Source: Gemmatimonadota bacterium
GTDB lineage: Bacteria; Gemmatimonadota; Gemmatimonadetes; Gemmatimonadales; GWC2-71-9
Direction of reading: 5' to 3'
Length of the DNA stretch: 32,404 nucleotides
Assembly: GCA_016209985.1 (NCBI GenBank)
Contig: JACQVB010000018.1
Location: forward strand, 1-32,404
A model generated the notes under the pieces. It was not told where the DNA came from. It did not search any database and saw only the letters and a program-made list of their open reading frames with translations. The position numbers and the translations under genes were made by a program. Shown here piece after piece: positions 3,781-23,283 of the stretch (its first letter is position 1; the number at the start of each line of letters is the position of its first letter).

Positions 3781-5034
3781 ATGAACATCGAACTAGTGAC
3801 GATTGGCACCGAGCTCCTCCTCGGTTTCACCATCGATACCAACGCCGCCCATATCTCTCGCGCCCTGGCTTCGGTTGGGGTGCGGGTGGTTAGAAGGACC
3901 ACCGTGGGAGACGGCGAGGCCGAGATACGGTCGAGCGTATCAGACGCGTTGGAGCGAACCGGTTTCGTCATTACCACCGGAGGCTTGGGACCGACGCGCG
4001 ACGACATCACCAAGAAGGTGTTGGCGGAGATTTTCGGCTTGCCGCTCGATCTGGACGAGCAGTATCTGGAAGCGCTACGCCGGCGATTCGAGGGAATGGG
4101 TCGCGGCCCGATGCCGCCGAGTAACCGGTGTCAGGCCGAGATGCCGCGGGGGGCGACGGTGCTGAACAACCAGTGGGGGACGGCGCCGGGGTTGTGGCTG
4201 GAGGGGAAGCCGGGGATCGCGATCCTTCTCCCGGGAGTTCCCCACGAAATGAAGATGCTGCTGGAGTACGAAGTCATTCCGCGGATCGAGGGAAGAGGGA
4301 AGAGGGAAGAGGGAAGAGCAAAACTCATTCGCTCGCTTACGCTGCGCACCACGGGCATTGGTGAGTCGGCATTGGCGGAGAAAGTCGGGGAAGTCGAGGA
4401 GAGGATAGCGCCGGTGACGTTGGCGTATTTGCCGTCGGTCGAAGGAGTGGACTTGCGGCTCACAGCGTGGGGCGCGGATGCGGAAGGGGCAGCACAGGTC
4501 TTGGAGCGTGCGGCGGGCGAGTTGAGGCCGGCGATTGCCCCCTACTGGTATGGAGATGACGAGAGTGATCTGGCCGCAGTCCTGCTGGATGAGCTGCGCA
4601 GGGAAGGTCGCAAGCTTGCGGTAGCGGAGTCCTGCACCGGTGGAATGTTGGGTGAGCGGATCACGGCCGTGCCCGGCTCCTCGGCCGTATTCGTGGGTGG
4701 AGTGATTGCCTATTCGGATGACGCCAAGGCAGCCGAGCTCGGAGTAGCCGAACCTTTGATCCGGGAGCACGGGTCCGTGAGCGAGCCGGTGGTGCAGGCC
4801 ATGGTAGAAGGGGTGACGCGCAAGTTCGGGGTAGCCGCGGGAATCGCGATTACCGGCATCGCGGGGCCGGATGGAGGGACGGCCGAGAAGCCGGTCGGGA
4901 CGGTGTGGCTGGCCGCGGTGGACGGTGACCAGATTCGGACGGTCGGGCGACGGTTTTTCGGAGGACGGCAAGAAGTGAGGGCGCGAAGCGTGCAGGCGGG
5001 GCTGGACCTGCTGCGCAGGCTCGGGGCCTCATGA
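3781..5034 (+). CDS. cinA: CinA family nicotinamide-nucleotide amidohydrolase / competence-damage protein
   Basis: This encodes a 417-residue protein with both CinA domains. The N-terminal MoCF-like (COG1058, ADP-ribose pyrophosphatase-type) domain spans ~1-170, with MNIELVTIGTELLLGFTIDTN and the TTGGLGPTRDD motif. The C-terminal PncC-type NMN deamidase domain starts around residue 260 and has AESCTGGMLGERITAVPGSS and AITGIAGPDGGTAEKPVGT. NMN deamidation recycles pyridine nucleotides, and in some bacteria CinA is part of the competence regulon. Residues ~169-181 are encoded by four GGGAAGA heptamers (4290-4317) at the domain junction and look like an insertion. No Shine-Dalgarno is visible; the ATG is close to the 23-bp inverted repeat. 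Its stop overlaps that of the convergent gene through TCATGA. Confidence 0.94.
   Translation: MNIELVTIGTELLLGFTIDTNAAHISRALASVGVRVVRRTTVGDGEAEIRSSVSDALERTGFVITTGGLGPTRDDITKKVLAEIFGLPLDLDEQYLEALRRRFEGMGRGPMPPSNRCQAEMPRGATVLNNQWGTAPGLWLEGKPGIAILLPGVPHEMKMLLEYEVIPRIEGRGKREEGRAKLIRSLTLRTTGIGESALAEKVGEVEERIAPVTLAYLPSVEGVDLRLTAWGADAEGAAQVLERAAGELRPAIAPYWYGDDESDLAAVLLDELRREGRKLAVAESCTGGMLGERITAVPGSSAVFVGGVIAYSDDAKAAELGVAEPLIREHGSVSEPVVQAMVEGVTRKFGVAAGIAITGIAGPDGGTAEKPVGTVWLAAVDGDQIRTVGRRFFGGRQEVRARSVQAGLDLLRRLGAS
4289..4318 (+). repeat. Intragenic 7-nt tandem repeat in cinA (GGGAAGA x4)
   Basis: Four perfect GGGAAGA units occupy 4290-4317 inside cinA and encode the GRGKREEGR stretch. Because 7 is not a multiple of 3, gain or loss of one unit would shift the reading frame. 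Confidence 0.9.
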
Positions 5035-12648: not shown

Positions 12649-13257
12649 ATGACAGAATCTAGCCTGCGCGAGACCGACGTCGATCCCGATCCCGTGAAGC
12701 AGTTCAGTCGCTGGTTCGATGATGCGCAGCACGCCGGCCTGATCGAGCCCAGCGCGATGAGCCTGGCCACGGCGAGCCGACAAGGTATACCGTCCGTGCG
12801 GCTGGTGCTGCTCAAGGGATTCGACGATCGCGGCTTCGTGTTCTATACCAACTATCAGAGTCCCAAAGCGCGGGATCTGCTGGAGAATCCCCAGGCCGCG
12901 CTGGCGTTCTGGTGGGATGTGCTCCAGCGACAGGTCCGCATCAGCGGGGACGTTGCGCGCGTGAGCCAGGCTGAGTCGGACGCGTACTTCCTGGTGCGCC
13001 CGGTGGGGAGCCGGCTCGGCGCGCACGCTTCCAGTCAGAGCAGCGTAATCAAGAGCCGCGACGACCTGGAGCGGCAGGTGGAAGCCCTCAGGAAGCAATA
13101 CGCCGATGGCAACGTACCGCGGCCGGAGCATTGGGGCGGATTTCGGCTGACCCCGCGCATGCTTGAGTTCTGGCAGGGCCGGGCCGACCGGCTGCATGAC
13201 CGGTTGCGCTACCAGCGCAAGGGTGGGGCGTGGGTTATCGAACGGTTGGCACCCTGA
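12649..13257 (+). CDS. pdxH: Pyridoxamine 5'-phosphate oxidase
   Basis: This FMN-dependent enzyme oxidises PNP/PMP to PLP in vitamin B6 synthesis and salvage. The 202 residues match the usual length. FMN-binding blocks are RLVLLKGFDDRGFVFYTNY, SPKARDL and FWWDVLQRQVRISGDV. Substrate and active-site blocks are VGSRLGAHASSQSS and, near the C-terminus, WGGFRLTPRMLEFWQG and RLHDRL, the PNPOx C-terminal dimerisation motif. The ATG 12649 is preceded by GAGAGG. A long open frame upstream on this strand overlaps the divergent peptidase and is not used. Its stop is directly followed by a tandem array. Confidence 0.96.
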   Translation: MTESSLRETDVDPDPVKQFSRWFDDAQHAGLIEPSAMSLATASRQGIPSVRLVLLKGFDDRGFVFYTNYQSPKARDLLENPQAALAFWWDVLQRQVRISGDVARVSQAESDAYFLVRPVGSRLGAHASSQSSVIKSRDDLERQVEALRKQYADGNVPRPEHWGGFRLTPRMLEFWQGRADRLHDRLRYQRKGGAWVIERLAP

Positions 13258-13260
13258 AAA

Positions 13261-13394
13261 GGGGTCGGTAAGGGTCGGTAAGGGTCGGTAAGAGTCGGTA
13301 AGGGTGAACGACCGACCCGTACCCCCAGGCCTACGACTCTTCCCGACTCTTCCCGACTCTTCCCGACCCTTACCGACTCTTACCGACCCTTAAA
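13261..13394. repeat. Inverted tandem array, 10-nt unit (GGGTCGGTAA family), first locus
   Basis: Left arm 13261-13300 is four decamers (GGGTCGGTAA with one GAGTCGGTAA variant) plus a degenerate fifth. Right arm 13335-13394 is six decamers on the opposite strand (GACTCTTCCC x3, then GACCCTTACC, GACTCTTACC, GACCCTTAAA). It lies between convergent pdxH and the antiporter gene. The antiporter's last three codons and TAA fall inside the right arm. Confidence 0.92.
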
Positions 13395-15359
13395 GATCTC
13401 CCCCGCTCTCGCCAGTGCCTCCGCCGTACCCACCACCACGAGCGTGTCCCCGGCGTGAAATCGGAAGTCGGGGTCGGGAGTGTGAAAGGTCTGGCCGCCA
13501 CGCACGGCGGCAATGACCGTGCATCCGGTTTGGCGTCGCAGGGCGAGCGTGACCGGCGTTTCGCCGACGGCGCGGCTTCCCGCTTCGACTTCGATGGTCT
13601 CGACGGCCATCTTGGCGCCGAGCTGGCGCAGGAGGTCGAGTCGCATGCCTGGCAAAGAGAGGCCGCGCAGCATGCCGTAGTGCTCGCCACGGGCGGCTTC
13701 CACTTCCTGGCGAATGGTGCTGGTGGGTACGCCGTAGAGCCGGAGGACGCGCGCGAAGATTTCGAGCGAGGTCTCGAACTCCTCGGGAATGACCTGGTCG
13801 GCCCCCAGCCGCTCGAGCTCCTCCAGCTCCGATACGTAGCGGGTGCGGACCACGATACGCACATCAGGGTTGAGATGCCGGGCCACCGCTACACCGCGTC
13901 GCTCGTCGGCCGGCGCCGAAATGGCGAACACGATTACCCGCGCACGTTTTATCCCCACCCGTTCCAGAACCTCGTGGCGGGTGGCGTCTCCGAAGAGAAT
14001 CGGTTCCCGATTGAGGCGAGCCTGGCGCACCACCTGCCCGTTCTGCTCCAGGATCACGTAGGGGATCCCGGATGCTTTCAGCGCCTTGGCCAGGTTGCGT
14101 CCGTTGAGTCCATAGCCGACGACGATCACGTGATCCGCGAGAGTGGCCGCGGGTTCCGAGGCCTCGGCGAGAGCGGCGGGGAGGTGTTTACCGATCCGCC
14201 GCCCCAGCCATTCGGCCAGCGGGCCGGCGGCCTGGATGACGAACGGAGCGGTAAGCATGGAGAGCACCGCGGCGCCGAGGAATAGCTGGTAGGACTCCTC
14301 GGTGAAGAGATTCAGCGGCTTCGCGACTTCGGCCAGGACGAAAGAGAATTCTCCCACTCGAGCCAACGCGAGCGCGCTCATCAGGCTCACCGGTAGGGAG
14401 CGCTTGAGCGAGCGGACCACGGCGCCGGCCACCGCCGTCTTGAGCAGGATCACGCCGGCGGTTGCTCCCGCCACCAGCGCCAGATGTTGGAGCACGAACC
14501 CGATGTCGAGCAGCATGCCGATCGACGTGAAGAAGATGCCGCTGAACGTGTCGCGGAACGGCAGGATGTCGGAAAGCGCCTGTACCCCGTATTCGGATTC
14601 GGAAATGACCAGACCGGCAATGAAGGCCCCCAGTGCGAGCGACAGCCCGAAGCTCGCGGTGAGATACGCCGCGCCGAGCCCGAGCAGCACGATGCACAAG
14701 GTGAAGATCTCGCGGTTGCGGAGCGCAGCCACCCGCTCCAGGAGCCGAGGCACCGCCACGCGTCCCACCAACACCAGCGCCGCCGTGAGCACCACGGAGC
14801 CGATGACGACGAGGGTGGCGGGCCGCGCACCCGCCGGCGTGGCGCCCGCGAGCGCAGGGATCAGCAGCATGAGGGGAACCACGCAGAGATCCTGGAACAG
14901 CAGGATCGCGATCACCACGCGACCCTGCGGCGTGTCCAGCTCCCCTCGATCGGTATAGACCTTGAGCACGATGGCGGTCGAGGACAGCGCCACCAGCGCG
15001 CCGATGAACACGCCCCGGTTGGGAGGGACGGAAAGGGCACCGGCGATCAGCGCCGTGACCGCCATGGTCCCCGCCATTTGCAGCCCGCCGCCCAGGGCCA
15101 CCGCGCGGCCGAGCTTGATGATGCGGGAGAGCGAGAGCTCAAGCCCGATGGCGAACAGCAACAGGACGACACCGATTTCGGCCAGGGCAGAGACCGATTC
15201 GGGCTGGCCGATGAGTGCCAGACCGTGTGGGCCGATCGCGATCCCCGTGAGCAGGAAGCCCACCACCGTCGGAATTCTGAGCCGGTAGGCGATCGCCACG
15301 ACCGGGATCGCAACGGCGACCAGAATGACCAGATCGCGGAGCAGCGCGAATTGATGCAT
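13380..15359 (-). CDS. Kef-type monovalent cation:proton antiporter (CPA2) with RCK domains
   Basis: This encodes 659 residues in three parts. A ~12-helix Na+/H+ exchanger domain spans ~1-390, with VVGFLLTGIAIGPHGL, GVVLLLFAIGLELS, the VALSSTAIVLKV block and ALARVGEFSFVLAE. A Rossmann RCK/TrkA-N domain starts at ~407 (DHVIVVGYGLNGRNLAKAL, i.e. GxGxxG) and runs to ~530. A TrkA-C domain spans ~575-655. The family exchanges K+ or Na+ for H+ across the inner membrane under nucleotide or ligand control by the RCK part. Start ATG 15359 begins MHQFALLRDLVIL. The last residues KGR and the TAA are encoded by the 10-nt repeat, so the natural C-terminus may have been altered. Ion specificity cannot be told from sequence. 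Confidence 0.93.
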   Translation of the reverse strand: MHQFALLRDLVILVAVAIPVVAIAYRLRIPTVVGFLLTGIAIGPHGLALIGQPESVSALAEIGVVLLLFAIGLELSLSRIIKLGRAVALGGGLQMAGTMAVTALIAGALSVPPNRGVFIGALVALSSTAIVLKVYTDRGELDTPQGRVVIAILLFQDLCVVPLMLLIPALAGATPAGARPATLVVIGSVVLTAALVLVGRVAVPRLLERVAALRNREIFTLCIVLLGLGAAYLTASFGLSLALGAFIAGLVISESEYGVQALSDILPFRDTFSGIFFTSIGMLLDIGFVLQHLALVAGATAGVILLKTAVAGAVVRSLKRSLPVSLMSALALARVGEFSFVLAEVAKPLNLFTEESYQLFLGAAVLSMLTAPFVIQAAGPLAEWLGRRIGKHLPAALAEASEPAATLADHVIVVGYGLNGRNLAKALKASGIPYVILEQNGQVVRQARLNREPILFGDATRHEVLERVGIKRARVIVFAISAPADERRGVAVARHLNPDVRIVVRTRYVSELEELERLGADQVIPEEFETSLEIFARVLRLYGVPTSTIRQEVEAARGEHYGMLRGLSLPGMRLDLLRQLGAKMAVETIEVEAGSRAVGETPVTLALRRQTGCTVIAAVRGGQTFHTPDPDFRFHAGDTLVVVGTAEALARAGEIFKGR

Positions 15360-15387
15360 GACACCTAAGGTCGTAAGTGATGTAGGA

Positions 15388-15446
15388 GGTTGGAAGGGCG
15401 GGAAGGGGAACCCTTACATCCCTTCCAACCCTTAGATCCCTTCCGA
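15388..15446. repeat. Inverted/tandem array with 9-nt units between divergent genes
   Basis: Four CCCTTNNAN nonamers occupy 15411-15446. GGTTGGAAGGG (15388-15398) is the perfect reverse complement of 15420-15430. It lies between the divergent antiporter and aldo/keto reductase genes, so here it is in promoter rather than terminator position. Confidence 0.85.
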
Positions 15447-15459
15447 CTAGATTGTCCCC

Positions 15460-16491
15460 ATGCGCTGGAAGTCTTTTGGCCGGTCCGGCCTCAAAGTCAC
15501 CGAGCTCTGCCTCGGTACCATGACGCTCGCGGGGCAGGCCGACGAGCAGGCCAGCTTCGCGATTCTCGACGCGGCCTGGGAGGGCGGCATCCGTTTCCTC
15601 GATACCGCCGATTGCTACCCCATACCCATCGAGGTCGAGACCGGCGGCCGCACCGAGTCCCTTCTGGGTCGTTGGATGGCCGAGCGACAAAACCGGGGCG
15701 ATCTGGTGCTCGCGACGAAAGCCTATTTCGCGATGGGCCGGCTTCCGCTGCATCGCGGGAACTCCCGGCTCCATTTGCGCAAAGCCTGCGAGGCTTCGCT
15801 CCGGCGGCTGCAGACCGACTACATCGACCTTTATCTCTGCCACGGCTGGGATGAGACCGTTCCCGTTGCCGAGACGATCGATGCGCTCGAGGCATTGCGG
15901 CGAGAAGGGAAGATCCTCTACGCCGGCATCTCCAACGTCCGGGTGCCGGAGGTGACGGCGGCGCTGCTCGAGGCGCACCGGTTGGGAGTGACCGGCTTCG
16001 ACGGGCTCCAGCCCCGGTACAACCTGCTGTATCGCGAGCTGGAGGATTCGCTCTTTCCGCTGGCCCGCAGCCAGGGGCTCGGCATCATGGTGTACAACCC
16101 GCTCGCCGGCGGGCTCCTCACCGGTAAACACCGGCCCGGTGCGGCGCCTGCCGAAGGAACCCGCTTCACGTTGGGAAGCTCGGGTGACGCCTACCGCGCG
16201 CGCTACTGGCACGACCGGCTGCTCACTGAGTCCGCCCGCCTGCACGGTGTCGCGGCCCAGCATGGTATCTCGCTGGTCACGGCGGCGATCGCCTGGACGC
16301 TCGCGAAAGCGGACATCAGCAGCGCCATCGTCGGCGTCAGCCGGGCGGTGCAGCTCGCCGACCAGCTCCGGGCCACGGAAATCACCCTGCCGGCCGAGTT
16401 GCAGAAAGAGCTGGACGCGGTATGGTACGCGTTGCCACGAAGACCACAGGAAAAGGATCCCCGCATCTCCGACTTCTATGGAACGGTCTAA
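15460..16491 (+). CDS. Aldo/keto reductase
   Basis: This encodes a 343-residue NADPH-dependent oxidoreductase with the (beta/alpha)8 AKR fold. The catalytic tetrad is visible: D48 (FLDTADCYP), Y53, K87 (LATKAYF) and H128 (LYLCHGWD). The N-terminus (MRWKSFGRSGLKVTELCLGTM) and the C-terminal cofactor block (SSAIVGVSRAVQLADQL) are typical of the YajO/Tas-like branch. In vivo substrates of such enzymes are rarely predictable. ATG 15460 follows the 9-nt array. The TAA (16489-16491) is one base before the ATG of the S9 peptidase gene, so the two form an operon. Confidence 0.92.
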   Translation: MRWKSFGRSGLKVTELCLGTMTLAGQADEQASFAILDAAWEGGIRFLDTADCYPIPIEVETGGRTESLLGRWMAERQNRGDLVLATKAYFAMGRLPLHRGNSRLHLRKACEASLRRLQTDYIDLYLCHGWDETVPVAETIDALEALRREGKILYAGISNVRVPEVTAALLEAHRLGVTGFDGLQPRYNLLYRELEDSLFPLARSQGLGIMVYNPLAGGLLTGKHRPGAAPAEGTRFTLGSSGDAYRARYWHDRLLTESARLHGVAAQHGISLVTAAIAWTLAKADISSAIVGVSRAVQLADQLRATEITLPAELQKELDAVWYALPRRPQEKDPRISDFYGTV

Positions 16492-16492
16492 C

Positions 16493-18991
16493 ATGTCTTC
16501 TGCTCGAGTCTCTTCCGGACACATTCTCTGGCTGGTTCCGGCGCTGCTCACTGCGGGCTCCCTTGCCGCCCAGGAACCGTACCTCAAGCCGCCGGCCGTC
16601 GTGGAACAGATTCTCGACGCGCCCCGGCCGCCGACACCGGTTCCCTCACCGGACGGAAAGCGGATCCTGCTTGCCGAGCCGACCTCGCTGCCGGGCATCG
16701 CCGACCTGGCGCAGCCGATGCTTCGTCTGGCCGGTCTGCGGATCAATCCCAATACCAGTGGACCCCATTTGCCCGTGGGATACCGCGCGCTGGTATTGCA
16801 CGACCTGGCAACCGGGAAAGAACGACGGCTGGTGACGCCGGCCGGGGCGCGCATCCAGTCGCCTCGCTGGTCGCCCGACGGCCGGCATCTGGCGTTCACC
16901 ACCACCACGCAGGAGGGAATCGACCTGTGGATCGCCGATATCCGCACCGGTGAGGCCCATTCGCTCACTCCGCGCCGGCTGAACGCGGTCACTGGGGAGC
17001 CATGCGACTGGCAGCCCAGCTCGGCGCAGCTCCTCTGTCAGTTCATTCCCGATGGGCGACAGGCGGCGCCCAGGGAGCCCGCGGTTCCGATCGGGCCGAT
17101 CGTGCAACGCAGCGAAGGCAAGGCCGCGCCGGCGGCGACGTACGAGGACCTGCTCGCGTCGCCCTATGACGAGGACCTGTTCGAGTACTACGCGACCGCC
17201 CAGGTGACCCGGGTGGATATCGCCACCGGTGCGCGTACCAAGCTCGGCGCTCCGGGGATCTATCTGGATGTGGACCCCTCACCCGGCGGGAATGCGATCC
17301 TGGTGGCGCGTGCGCTCCGGCCCTTCTCCTATCTGGTGCCGCTGGGCGCGTTCGCGCAGGAGGTGGAAGTCTGGAACCGGGACGGCACCAGGATCCACAC
17401 GGTGGCGAAGCTTCCGGTGGGAGAAGGCGTACCGGTGGACGGGGTTCGCACCGGCCCCAGACAGATCCAGTGGCGAAGCGGCGAGCCGGCGACCTTGATC
17501 TACGTCGAAGCGCTGGACGGCGGAGACAACCGGCGCGCCGCGGAGTTCCGCGACCGGGTGGTCGAGATCGCACAGCCGTACACGCAGGAGCGCGAGCTGG
17601 CGCGGCTCAACTTCCGCTTCACCAGGATCGTCTTCGCCCGGGACGGCTCGGCACTGCTGACGGAGACGGAGAGGCGTACGCGTCATACCCGTACGTGGAT
17701 GCTCTCGTCGTCCCCGTCCTCCCTCCCGCAGAGCCTGCCCCGAGCAGAGCGAGAGCCTGCCCTGAGCGGAGCGAAGGGGGAAGAGGGGAAGGGAAATCGC
17801 AGGCTGTTGTTTGACCGTTCCTCCGAGGATCGCTACAGCGATCCCGGAACGCCGGTCACCACCCGCGACGCGGTGGGGGACCTGGTGCTGCTGCAGCCGG
17901 AGGATCGAAACTGGATCTACCTGTCCAGTGCCGGAGCGTCGCCCGCCGGTGATCGGCCGTTTCTCGACCGCCGCAATCTCCAAACCGGGAAGACCGAGCG
18001 CATCTGGCAGTCCGGGTCGGACAGCTACGAGCAGCTGGCCGCAGTGCTCGATCCGGACGCGCGCCAACTGGTCATCCGGCAGGAGAGCCGCACCACGCCG
18101 CCCAACTTCGTGCTGCGCGATACGCGAACCGACGCGCTCAAGCGCATCACGGACCTCAAGCCGCCGGTGGCGGAGTTGGCCAACGTGCGACGGGAGCTGG
18201 TCAAGTACCGGCGGGCGGATGGGATCGATCTCTCGGGCACGCTGTACTATCCGCTGGACTACCGGGAGGGCCAGAAGGTGCCGGTAATCTTCTGGGTGTA
18301 CCCTTCGGAATTCGCGACCGCGTCGGCCGCGAGCCAGGTGCGGGGCAGTGACAATACGTTCGTCTGGCCCACCGGAGCGTCCCAACTTTTCCTGCTGACG
18401 CAGGGGTACGCGGTGCTGGACAACCCGTCACTTCCGGTGATTGGCGGGGACACGGCGAACGACACCTATGTAGATCAGACGGTCGCGGGGGCCAGGGCGG
18501 CGGTGGAGTATCTCATCCAGCGCGGCATCGCCGATGGCAATTTCGGGGTGGGGGGGCACAGCTACGGCTCTTTTACCACCGCCAACCTGTTAGCCCACTC
18601 TGAGCTGTTCAAGGCGGGGGTCGCGCGTAGCGGGGCCTTCAACCGCACGCTCACGCCTTTCGGCTTTCAGAACGAGCGCCGCACCTACTGGGAGGCCCGC
18701 GACGTATATCTCAGGATGATGCCGTTCAATGCCGCCGATTCCATCAATGAGCCGATCCTGTTGATTCACGGAATGGTGGATGACAACTCGGGCACCTTCC
18801 CGATCCAATCGGAACGGATGTACCTGGCGCTCAAGGGACTCGGCGCAACGGTCGAGTATGTGCAGCTACCCAACGAGGCACACGGATATCTGGCGCGCGA
18901 GACCGTGGGGGACGTCGTGGCTAGAATGATTCAGTGGTATGACAAATACGTAAAAAGCGGTGTTAGGAAAGTGTCGCTGAAGGGTCGGTAA
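16493..18991 (+). CDS. S9 family serine peptidase, glutamyl endopeptidase (CGEP)-like
   Basis: This encodes 832 residues. A signal peptide (SSGHILWLVPALLTAGSLAAQ) predicts export. A beta-propeller (~40-560) with WSPDGRHLAFTT-type turns precedes an alpha/beta-hydrolase domain. The catalytic triad is S690 (GGHSYGSF), D763 (HGMVDDNSGT) and H797 (NEAHGY). The blocks LRINPNTSGPH near the N-terminus and NRTLTPFGFQNE after the nucleophile match plant and bacterial glutamyl endopeptidases of S9. ATG 16493 is preferred; ATG 16478 in frame adds five residues and overlaps the preceding gene. Residues ~413-435 are encoded by a 22-nt direct repeat and look inserted. The terminal KGR and stop come from the 10-nt repeat at 18981. 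Confidence 0.93.
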   Translation: MSSARVSSGHILWLVPALLTAGSLAAQEPYLKPPAVVEQILDAPRPPTPVPSPDGKRILLAEPTSLPGIADLAQPMLRLAGLRINPNTSGPHLPVGYRALVLHDLATGKERRLVTPAGARIQSPRWSPDGRHLAFTTTTQEGIDLWIADIRTGEAHSLTPRRLNAVTGEPCDWQPSSAQLLCQFIPDGRQAAPREPAVPIGPIVQRSEGKAAPAATYEDLLASPYDEDLFEYYATAQVTRVDIATGARTKLGAPGIYLDVDPSPGGNAILVARALRPFSYLVPLGAFAQEVEVWNRDGTRIHTVAKLPVGEGVPVDGVRTGPRQIQWRSGEPATLIYVEALDGGDNRRAAEFRDRVVEIAQPYTQERELARLNFRFTRIVFARDGSALLTETERRTRHTRTWMLSSSPSSLPQSLPRAEREPALSGAKGEEGKGNRRLLFDRSSEDRYSDPGTPVTTRDAVGDLVLLQPEDRNWIYLSSAGASPAGDRPFLDRRNLQTGKTERIWQSGSDSYEQLAAVLDPDARQLVIRQESRTTPPNFVLRDTRTDALKRITDLKPPVAELANVRRELVKYRRADGIDLSGTLYYPLDYREGQKVPVIFWVYPSEFATASAASQVRGSDNTFVWPTGASQLFLLTQGYAVLDNPSLPVIGGDTANDTYVDQTVAGARAAVEYLIQRGIADGNFGVGGHSYGSFTTANLLAHSELFKAGVARSGAFNRTLTPFGFQNERRTYWEARDVYLRMMPFNAADSINEPILLIHGMVDDNSGTFPIQSERMYLALKGLGATVEYVQLPNEAHGYLARETVGDVVARMIQWYDKYVKSGVRKVSLKGR
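17731..17774 (+). repeat. 22-nt direct repeat inside the S9 peptidase gene
   Basis: 17731-17752 and 17753-17774 are two adjacent copies of GAGCCTGCCC(C/T)GAGC(A/G)GAGCGA, followed by purine-rich GGGGAAG-like repeats to ~17790. The unit resembles dispersed CTGAGCG-type repeats seen in several bacterial phyla (from memory, not searched). It encodes a low-complexity insertion in the propeller. Confidence 0.85.
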
Positions 18992-19024
18992 GAGTCGGTA
19001 AGAGTCGGTAAGGGTCGGTAAGGG
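18981..19024 (+). repeat. 10-nt tandem array (GGGTCGGTAA family), second locus, left arm
   Basis: Four decamers (AGGGTCGGTA, AGAGTCGGTA twice, AGGGTCGGTA) occupy 18981-19020. The first supplies the last codons and TAA of the S9 peptidase. The matching opposite-strand arm lies ~0.84 kb away at 19861-19930. Confidence 0.92.
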
Positions 19025-19050
19025 GTTGTCGCGCATGCTTTGGGTACGGC

Positions 19051-19461
19051 ATGCAGGTATTTGGTGTCTCAGAGGCGTTGTTCCGTCCGCAATTTGCCTC
19101 CGTGTCCGCGCTCCCATTTCAGCGGCTGGTCGCCTGGCAAGCCTGTCATGCACTCACCTTGGCGATCTATGCCGCCACGGACCGGTTCCCCAGAGAAGAG
19201 CGCTACGGGTTGACTTCCCAGGCGCGCAGGGCGGCGTTTTCGGCTGAGGCCAATATCGCGGAGGGTTCAGCGAAGCACGGGAAGCGTGAGTGTCGCAGGT
19301 TTCTGGATATCTCGATTGGTTCGTTGAGCGAACTTGCTTGCGCCTTGTTGCTGTCACGTGATCGTGGCTATCTCAGCGAGAAAGATTGGGCGAGGTTGGA
19401 GCGGATTCGAGGCCGGGCGGGTTTCTTGACGTGGCGTTTGTACGATTCGCTTCGCCACTAG
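19051..19461 (+). CDS. Four helix bundle protein (S23/IVS-encoded family)
   Basis: This encodes 136 residues. From ~22 onwards it matches the four-helix-bundle family first known from 23S rRNA intervening sequences and related to Avd of diversity-generating retroelements. The matching blocks are FQRLVAWQACHALTLAIY, FPREERYGLTSQARRAAFSAEANIAEG, ECRRFLDISIGSLSEL and, at the end, RLYDSLRH. The first ~18 residues after ATG 19051 are not conserved-looking; a GTG at 19102 (VSALPFQRL) is an alternative start. Members form pentameric nucleic-acid-binding barrels, but their cellular role is unsettled. The gene sits between two inverted arms of a 10-nt repeat and is less GC-rich than its neighbours. 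Its stop overlaps that of the convergent gene in a shared CTAG. Confidence 0.88.
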   Translation: MQVFGVSEALFRPQFASVSALPFQRLVAWQACHALTLAIYAATDRFPREERYGLTSQARRAAFSAEANIAEGSAKHGKRECRRFLDISIGSLSELACALLLSRDRGYLSEKDWARLERIRGRAGFLTWRLYDSLRH

Positions 19462-19838
19462 CTTTTCCCCCTCATCGTCCAGACCTCGATTCCACCCTTG
19501 TCGCCCACGTAACTGCTCGCCGCCCAGCCGGTTAGTCCCACGATGATCGACGCGAGAATTGCCGAGCCAAGTCCGGATACATGAAACGAAGGCATGAACC
19601 ACGCCACCAAGAGAATCATCATTCCATTGATTACAAAAATGAAAAGGCCGAGTGTTAAGAGCGTGAATGGTAGGGTGAGCAGAATGACCACCGGCCGGAC
19701 GAATGCGTTGACTATCCCCAGAAGAGCAGCGGCGATAAAGAGGGGAAGGGCGCCATCGAAGCTGATTCCCGAGAGCAGCAAATCGGCGAGCCAGAGGCCA
19801 AAAGCCGTCATGAGGAGCCGGGCAAAGAAGCCACGCAT
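19458..19838 (-). CDS. YvlD/DUF360-type phage holin family membrane protein
   Basis: This encodes 126 residues with four hydrophobic helices: LLMTAFGLWLADLLL, LPLFIAAALLGIVNAFV, PFTLLTLGLFIFVINGMMILLVAWF and a last one near 100-113. The NAFVRPVVILLTLPFTLLTLG block is the signature of the mycobacterial-type phage holin/YvlD family. In Bacillus, YvlD is linked to envelope stress. These proteins are usually chromosomal and not evidence of a phage. The start is ATG 19838. It converges on the four-helix-bundle gene with a 4-base overlap. It lies inside the pair of inverted 10-nt arrays. Confidence 0.9.
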   Translation of the reverse strand: MRGFFARLLMTAFGLWLADLLLSGISFDGALPLFIAAALLGIVNAFVRPVVILLTLPFTLLTLGLFIFVINGMMILLVAWFMPSFHVSGLGSAILASIIVGLTGWAASSYVGDKGGIEVWTMRGKS

Positions 19839-19860
19839 GGTTGGAATATAGGCGGTGACA

Positions 19861-19930
19861 ACCCTTCCCGACTCTTACCAGCTCTTACCGTCCCTTACCG
19901 ACCCTTACCGACCCTTACCGACTTTCACCG
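19861..19930 (-). repeat. 10-nt tandem array (GGGTCGGTAA family), second locus, right arm
   Basis: Seven decamers on the opposite orientation (ACCCTTCCCG, ACTCTTACCA, GCTCTTACCG, TCCCTTACCG, ACCCTTACCG twice, ACTTTCACCG). Read on the minus strand they end the symporter gene with GAA AGT CGG TAA. Confidence 0.92.
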
Positions 19931-21168
19931 CCACTTGAGGACCACCGCGCTACTATCACCGCCACCGTCATGTCGGAAGCGAGAATCAGCGCGCTCTTGA
20001 ACATGTCGGGAATAGCGTCAATCGCGATGAGGATCCCGATGCCTTCCACCGGCAGCCCGATCGCCGCATAGATCGGCGCCTGGATCAGCAATCCTCCGCT
20101 GGGGATTCCCGGCGTGCTGGCATTCAGGAGGATCGATGCCGCGGCGACGGTGGCGAGCTGTGAGGGCGCGAGGTCGATGCCGTAGAGCTGGGCCACGAAC
20201 TGAGCGCCCAGGGTCCAGTAGATCGGACTGGTAAACTTGAACACCGAGATCGCGAACGGCAGCACGAAGCCGGTCACCTCGGCCGGCAGATGCAGGACGT
20301 CCCGGGCTCCTTCGATGAGTGCCGGGAGTGCCGTCAGCGAAGAACGCGAAGTGAAGCCCACCACCTGTGCCGGGAACACCGCTCGGGCGAAGGTGCGAAG
20401 CGACACCCGTCCCGCAATAGTGGCGAAAAGGTAAAGGCCGATTCCGGCCACCAGCGCCAGCACCACCGCCAGCCCCACGTAATAGCCCAGCGCCGCGCCC
20501 AGCGTGCCGGAGCCGAGCCGCGCGCTCACCACGAACGCCAGGGCGAACACACCGAGCGGCGTCAGCTTGAGAATCCAGCGAATCAGAATCAGCAGCGCTT
20601 CCAGGATGGCCTCGAAGAAGCGCAGGGTGACGGCCCGCGCCGCCGGTTCCAACCGGGTGAGTGCAAACGCGAACGTGACGGTGAAGACGATGACCGGCAG
20701 CAGGGTGCCATCGGCCGCGGCCTTGATGGGGTTCACCGGAATGAGGGAGACCAGCCACGTTCTCCAGGAAATGTCCGCCGCGTTGGCAGGCTGGAGATGC
20801 GCGCTGGCGCGCAGCGCCGCGGTGCTTGCGGGATCGAGTACCAGGGGCCGGAAGGCGAAGGGAGCGACGACGGCGGTGAATGCCGCCGCCGCTATCAGCA
20901 GCACCAGAAACAAGGCGACCGATTGCGCCCCTAAGCGGCCCACCCGCTTGGCGCTTGCCGCCGATGCCACCCCGGTCACCAGGAGCGACACGACCAGGGG
21001 AATCACGGTCATCCTGATGGCGTTGATCCACAGGGTGCCGACCGGCTCGATCAAGGGCACGAGCCTTTGCAACGTGGCGATTGCGCCCAGGGCCAGCCCG
21101 AGGAGCAGGCCCCAGAACGCCCGGGCGGTGGGAGAGAACAGTCCGGCGGCGCGTGGCTGCCTGGGCAT
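19915..21168 (-). CDS. Dicarboxylate/amino acid:cation symporter (DAACS, SLC1-type)
   Basis: This encodes a 417-residue secondary transporter of the glutamate/dicarboxylate family with ~8 helices and two re-entrant hairpins. The hairpin 1 region carries a serine-rich block (FTSRSSLTALPALIEGA). Hairpin 2 is ASTPGIPSGGLLI. The last helix, normally DxxRTxxNVxGD, reads AIDAIPDMFKSALILASDMTVA, so the substrate-selecting Arg and the Asn are not conserved as usual. The transported solute is therefore uncertain. ATG 21168 has AGGA 9 bases upstream; the open frame continues far upstream but that part overlaps the ABC-F gene in another frame. The C-terminal ESR and TAA are encoded by the 10-nt repeat. 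Confidence 0.92.
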   Translation of the reverse strand: MPRQPRAAGLFSPTARAFWGLLLGLALGAIATLQRLVPLIEPVGTLWINAIRMTVIPLVVSLLVTGVASAASAKRVGRLGAQSVALFLVLLIAAAAFTAVVAPFAFRPLVLDPASTAALRASAHLQPANAADISWRTWLVSLIPVNPIKAAADGTLLPVIVFTVTFAFALTRLEPAARAVTLRFFEAILEALLILIRWILKLTPLGVFALAFVVSARLGSGTLGAALGYYVGLAVVLALVAGIGLYLFATIAGRVSLRTFARAVFPAQVVGFTSRSSLTALPALIEGARDVLHLPAEVTGFVLPFAISVFKFTSPIYWTLGAQFVAQLYGIDLAPSQLATVAAASILLNASTPGIPSGGLLIQAPIYAAIGLPVEGIGILIAIDAIPDMFKSALILASDMTVAVIVARWSSSGGESR

Positions 21169-21187
21169 TGGACATCCTTTATTAGGT

Positions 21188-23158: not shown

Positions 23159-23190
23159 GGCGGACAGGAAAGTAGCATCAGTCGCAGCGG

Positions 23191-23283
23191 GGGCGGTAAA
23201 GGGCGGTAGAGGGCGGTAGAGGGCGGTAAAGGGCGGAAAGGCGGTCCTCCACCGCTGATGGCTGATGGCTGATGGCTGACGGC
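23191..23283. repeat. Double tandem array: 10-nt (GGGCGGTARA x5) then 7-nt (GCTGATG x4)
   Basis: GGGCGGTAAA/GGGCGGTAGA decamers run 23191-23240, the last degenerate. After 13 bases, GCTGATG heptamers run 23254-23281 and abut the TGA (23286-23284) of the aldo/keto reductase. Here the two arrays have different units and no inverted partner. The array lies in the 5' leader of the ABC-F gene. Confidence 0.9.

Follow-up and report, generated by a model that had tools for sequence, protein, structure and literature searches.

Short tandem repeats at gene ends of a Gemmatimonadota genome as probable inverted arms of small insertion elements, often with an S23 gene

The window, a stretch of 32,404 nucleotides from a Gemmatimonadota bacterium (contig JACQVB010000018.1), holds two structures built from a 10-nt unit, one between a pdxH-like gene and a Na+/H+ exchanger gene (the antiporter), the other between the genes of an S9 peptidase and a DAACS symporter (Table). 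Their arrays are not three independent arrays but inverted arms that pair with each other. The arms of the short hairpin (13262-13305 with 13340-13392) fold at -87 kcal/mol (z -8.5), while the long element spans 18968-19934 and encloses an S23 gene and a Phage_holin_4_2 gene, with 18980-19024 pairing with 19861-19922 over about 840 nt. The S23 protein belongs to its family (PF05635, TIGR02436) with 96.6 bits against a curated cut-off of 33.8 and, in a second search, 87.8 against 24; its closest solved structure is 2gsc (XCC0516) from Xanthomonas campestris, of the four-helix-bundle family. No arm follows directly past the stop of this S23 gene, the paired arm lying beyond the holin gene, which was possibly captured.

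Table. Genes and repeat arms around the two hairpin-forming structures of the window.
Feature	Position	Strand	Remark
pdxH-like gene	12649..13257	+	convergent with antiporter; stop 5 nt outside array
Short hairpin, left arm	13262..13305	+	about 4.4 units GRGTCGGTAA
Short hairpin, loop between arms	13306..13339	.	
Short hairpin, right arm	13340..13392	-	5 minus-strand units; writes ...KGR-stop of antiporter
Na+/H+ exchanger (antiporter), TrkA_N + TrkA_C domains	13380..15359	-	final codons and stop array-derived
S9 peptidase	16490..18991	+	start 16490 or 16601; tail about VSLKGR-stop array-derived
Long element, left arm	18968..19024	+	4.5 units and one degenerate outer unit
S23 / 23S_rRNA_IVP gene (PF05635, TIGR02436), four-helix-bundle protein	19051..19461	+	likely start GTG 19102; stop overlaps holin stop
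Phage_holin_4_2 family gene	19458..19838	-	between long element's arms; chromosomal in relatives
Long element, right arm	19861..19934	-	about 6 units and degenerate outer unit; writes SGGESR-stop of DAACS
DAACS (SDF family) symporter	19915..21174	-	final codons and stop array-derived

Further inverted short-tandem hairpins lie at 3669-3691/3748-3770 (unit GACGGTTG), 8507-8537/8586-8616 (unit GAGTGCGG) and 9730-9754/9769-9793 (unit AGGTGCC/GGTGTC), all three beginning no more than about 10 nt from a stop codon. Between divergent genes, at 15370-15447, lies a hairpin with a 9-nt unit (ATGTAAGGG type) that resembles the arms of the S23 element on contig C154, and a 10-nt GGGCGGTAAA array at 23190-23245 has no clear inverted partner. 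Two repeats are found inside genes: a GAGGGAA heptamer array at 4288-4318 in a CinA-like gene, translated as GKREEGRAK, and a 22-nt repeat at 17730-17793 in the S9 peptidase gene. A different frame of the latter gives ACPERSEGG, which recurs as a short repeat in many MAG proteins.

The antiporter and the S9 peptidase both end in AAG GGT CGG TAA (stops at 13382-13380, minus strand, and 18989-18991, plus strand), and the DAACS symporter ends in GAA AGT CGG TAA (stop at 19917-19915, minus strand). An earlier note had claimed that the array writes the C-terminus and stop codon of these three unrelated genes; this is correct, and every coordinate and codon was verified. The note had also pointed out that all three genes read the same strand of the unit in the same frame, which is true as a description but carries no weight as independent evidence, since it is forced by the unit. 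TAA is the sole stop of the G-rich strand and occurs once per 10-nt unit; therefore a gene entering in any frame reaches an in-frame TAA within three units (30 nt), after AAG RGT CGG, and a KGR-stop ending becomes common to the three genes. Indeed, genes that enter an array in the other two frames exist and end in VGKGR-stop and VRVGKSR-stop. In both the S9 peptidase and the DAACS symporter the array-written stretch exceeds three codons through a degenerate outer unit, AAGTGNCGNTGA, of the L053 arms.

Could the similar terminal words of the three genes be an accident? The small number of cases within the window may invite this reading, but we regard it as already refuted and its probability as negligible, because GGGTCGGTAA with at most one mismatch matches the window 17 times against 1.4 expected, and because, in the stretches of the own genome that were examined, RGT CGG TAA terminates 10 of 24 gene ends that lie no further than 30 nt from an array against 0 of 187 elsewhere. 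In the orthologue comparison, the C-termini of the antiporter, the S9 peptidase and the DAACS symporter were unconserved past the last domain residues. Array-free orthologues with the same terminal residues, which would speak against a rewriting of these ends, did not turn up: the tails differ, and none of the compared orthologues ends in KGR/ESR plus TAA or in array-like codons of the 10-nt unit. Other arrays lie directly past the stops of the same genes in some relatives (S9 peptidase in G001 and G003, DAACS symporter in G015). At the pdxH/antiporter junction, which measures 122 nt in the window and holds the hairpin, the two stops abut without an array in G001, of the same genus, and stand about 14 nt apart in G019, so that the array at this junction is derived.

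Within the source assembly (4.64 Mb), the two-unit pattern of the 10-nt array gave 71 matches at about 25 sites and its backward control none. Most of these sites consist of about four units, a loop and about four inverted units, the units pointing inward. Not three but at least 12 genes of this genome end in codons written by the GRGWCGGTAA array, with K[GS]R, ESR or SGR before the TAA and with all three entry frames represented. Gene calls from a simple home-made program place a gene stop of the same strand no more than 200 nt from 27 of the 43 arms, and 21 of those 27 stops fall inside the array or at most 6 nt outside it.

Six S23 matches, five of them complete, were found in the genome; in a scan with a two-sequence alignment, the closest named S23 relatives came from Gemmatimonadota MAGs. 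Four of the five complete genes lie between significant inverted arms whose units differ from element to element: 10 nt in the window, 9 nt on C154, 7 nt on C7 and a degenerate 7 nt on C180. The fifth (C33) is accompanied by a tandem repeat without significant pairing. The 10-, 9- and 7-nt units of three of these elements recur at many places free of S23, often as plus/minus pairs 50-100 nt apart, although the backward control of the simple 7-nt pattern likewise scored 22.

Is the enclosure of S23 genes by such arms a common arrangement? At a threshold of score at least 16 and z at least 4, inverted short-tandem arms surround 76 of 91 S23 loci, which are top search matches, some of them orthologous, and so not independent counts. 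Among the controls, none of 51 large genes, none of 46 small genes and 2 of 400 random intervals reached this threshold. The only two passes among the small-gene controls were the long element of the window itself, seen twice through its holin gene, and were removed, which leaves 0 of 97 control genes when pooled. Armed loci occur in Gemmatimonadota and also in Bacteroidota (15 of 18), Cyanobacteriota (4 of 6), Pseudomonadota (3 of 4), Planctomycetota (2 of 2) and Chloroflexota (1 of 1); the 15 loci that failed include the cyanobacterial L190, and L146 and L147 in the same family. The median element length is 534 nt. Of the family's 102 genomes, 85 contain PF05635, as do 54 of 101 in a phylum sample. 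Similarity of S23 proteins tracks similarity of the arms (Mantel r 0.14, p 0.002, same-orientation arms; p 0.2 for reverse-complemented arms as control), a correlation for which vertical descent of whole elements suffices, so that no binding is required.

Three plasmid loci deserve separate mention. On plasmid AZO_p2 of Azospirillum lipoferum 4B (L233), the gene table used omits an S23 gene that has clear inverted arms. An armed S23 gene lies inside a CRISPR operon, cas6-cas4, on a Pseudanabaena plasmid (L230), and another, with weak arms, inside cas10-cmr3 on a plasmid of Picosynechococcus PCC 7003 (L235). The 23S rRNA IVP is among the proteins scored for CRISPR association (PMC10910872). Such an association could stem from insertion, and S23 genes in cas operons may be insertions rather than CRISPR components.

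At 40 Gemmatimonadota S23 loci, 42 arms face a same-strand stop, and 40 of these arms are placed between -41 and +34 nt from that stop; besides stops, arms adjoin start codons too. The S23 loci stand in convergent (21), tandem (31) and divergent (1) contexts, as given by a gene caller trained on GC-rich DNA and hence less sure for Bacteroidota. Sites with and without an element can be compared at the L138 junction, whose flanks were sought in the family. It is empty in G046, G050, G067 and G054, the convergent genes sharing CTAG as overlapping stops in G046, G067 and G054 and nearly abutting in G050, and it is occupied in G049, G048, G043 (part of whose flank is masked) and G042, with an element of ~530-570 nt in G049, G048 and G042. 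In occupied genomes both flanking genes end in array-encoded codons: in G049, the left gene reads through the array (ELLG-SQESGVRSRG-stop) and the right one ends in SKK-HGVGS-stop. The GGAGTCA unit at this junction has no coding-strand stop, four of its units being read through by the gene. In other relatives, S23-free hairpins built from different units stand here, and G044 has a decayed element. Roughly 20 nt of the junction seem to be replaced rather than duplicated. At the L154 junction, which is tight in G043, G046 and G048, the filled site of G050 has TAG at the arm edge. A clean target-site duplication was resolved at neither of these two junctions, given that only about 70-90% of the sequence agrees between occupied and empty sites; in the comparison of G061 with G067, the insert in G061 is flanked by copies of CTAG on both sides. 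The empty junction in G054 is itself a palindrome, AAAGGCGTCTAGACGCCTTT, and nearly so in G067 (L211, L212, L224).

These empty sites in relatives support the first of two alternatives raised in the earlier note, namely that arrays entered the 3' ends of genes and replaced the original stop. The second, a unit selected as a stop-codon cap, can be widened to a bidirectional transcription terminator, with a position at stops that is functional and not insertional. The 10-nt unit does supply a stop in every coding-strand frame, the hairpin fold is very stable and convergent contexts far outnumber the single divergent one, but a unit without any coding-strand stop, units that vary within one genome, arms at start codons and several relatives that do without arrays at the same junctions make this alternative rather unlikely. 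A further alternative is an in-place expansion by slippage from sequence that pre-existed at gene ends, in which no element moves. Slippage does expand short tandem repeats, and the CGTCTAG of the empty palindrome in G067 and G054 is found in the arms of G061; yet one 10-nt unit recurs as inward-pointing arms at about 25 unrelated places of the genome, and inverted pairs bracket S23 genes far above controls, which renders slippage quite improbable.

Elements of this kind have relatives among known systems. In Coxiella, an S23 ORF lies between complementary ends in an rRNA intervening sequence (IVS) of 428-444 nt whose mobility has long been suspected (PMC4990558). The 23S rRNA IVSs of Coxiella and Leptospira, which encode S23p and are cut out of the RNA by RNase III, share with the present elements the protein family, a length of some hundred nucleotides and complementary ends; the element of the window likewise has an S23 ORF between complementary terminal sequences. 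However, the IVSs sit in a 23S rRNA helix, whereas the present elements lie between protein genes (in the window, those of the S9 peptidase and the DAACS symporter), have arms of tandem 7-10-nt units and share these units with many gene-less hairpins. Heptamer arrays of GGGAATC / GGGGAYT in Xanthomonas and Nostoc, for which no link to a mobile element was found and S23 was not mentioned (Rehm et al. 2015, PMC4692102), resemble the present ones as convergent inverted pairs mostly less than 50 bp from stops and partly overlapping them. The TAACTGA repeats of Beggiatoaceae, read as regulatory sites (MacGregor 2015, PMC4679880), have stops in all three frames, overlap upstream stops and are forced to ORF ends like the present unit, but are mostly direct and lie ahead of start codons.

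Could the hairpins be MITEs or REPINs served in trans by a transposase, with S23 a mere passenger? We consider this unlikely, judging from a search of the genome for Y1/RAYT-like transposases. REPINs depend on a RAYT, and S23 is without a known nuclease. Like REPINs (PMC3116915), the present hairpins are small, intergenic and often at gene ends, occur in many copies and have a matching gene; as in MITEs, they are short and multi-copy, and their terminal inverted repeats are common to a gene-carrying element. Their repeats are short tandem units and not REP sequences, however, and the source genome yielded no Y1 transposase with such repeats on either side. Mobilisation by a RAYT is unsupported, as the only Y1/RAYT-like gene found (C6:17601-17852) is not flanked by arms and has no such units nearby.

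We therefore favour, as the probable explanation, that small insertion elements, often with an S23 gene, carry the repeats as their inverted terminal arms and rewrite gene 3' ends at junctions. On this view, the short repeat writes the final residues and stop of three genes because it forms the ends of hairpin-forming insertions placed at gene ends. A typical element of ~530 nt consists of inverted arrays of 7-10-nt units enclosing the S23 (23S-rRNA-IVP) gene, and gene-less arms, as hairpins of ~100-130 nt, resemble non-autonomous copies. Both are found at gene junctions, nearly always at the 3' end of a gene. As the outer units replace its last codons and stop, the host gene uses the first in-frame stop and ends in repeat-encoded residues, here K/E-G/S-R, the altered tail presumably being a tolerated by-product.

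We infer that the elements are mobile and that the hairpins rely on S23 supplied in trans. No catalytic activity is known for S23. A weak similarity (E 0.0045 to 0.00015) links it to the Avd protein of diversity-generating retroelements, whose known partners are nucleic acid and a reverse transcriptase, so that nucleic-acid binding by S23, as predicted from this similarity, is plausible. S23 would act through host enzymes, possibly while bound to the arms in folded DNA or RNA form. More tentatively still, and with some doubt on our part, S23 proteins might define a widespread class of transposase-less mobile elements. The protein would recognise folded short-tandem arms and have S23 genes, along with the hairpins that depend on them, put at the ends of genes by host enzymes; such a class would take in the rRNA IVSs as well as the orphan heptamer arrays of Xanthomonas, Nostoc and others.

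Short repeats that overlap stop codons are already known from Xanthomonas and Nostoc and from Beggiatoaceae. A link between S23 and tandem arrays was not found in the literature searched, where thin coverage of subscription papers makes such an absence weak; within that literature, the connection of stop-codon repeats with S23 elements appears new. If it is true, the common annotations "four helix bundle protein" and "S23 ribosomal protein" would gain a context and a testable role, the intergenic short-tandem hairpins of several phyla would have one cause, and bacteria would possess a route for rewriting the C-termini and stop codons of their genes.
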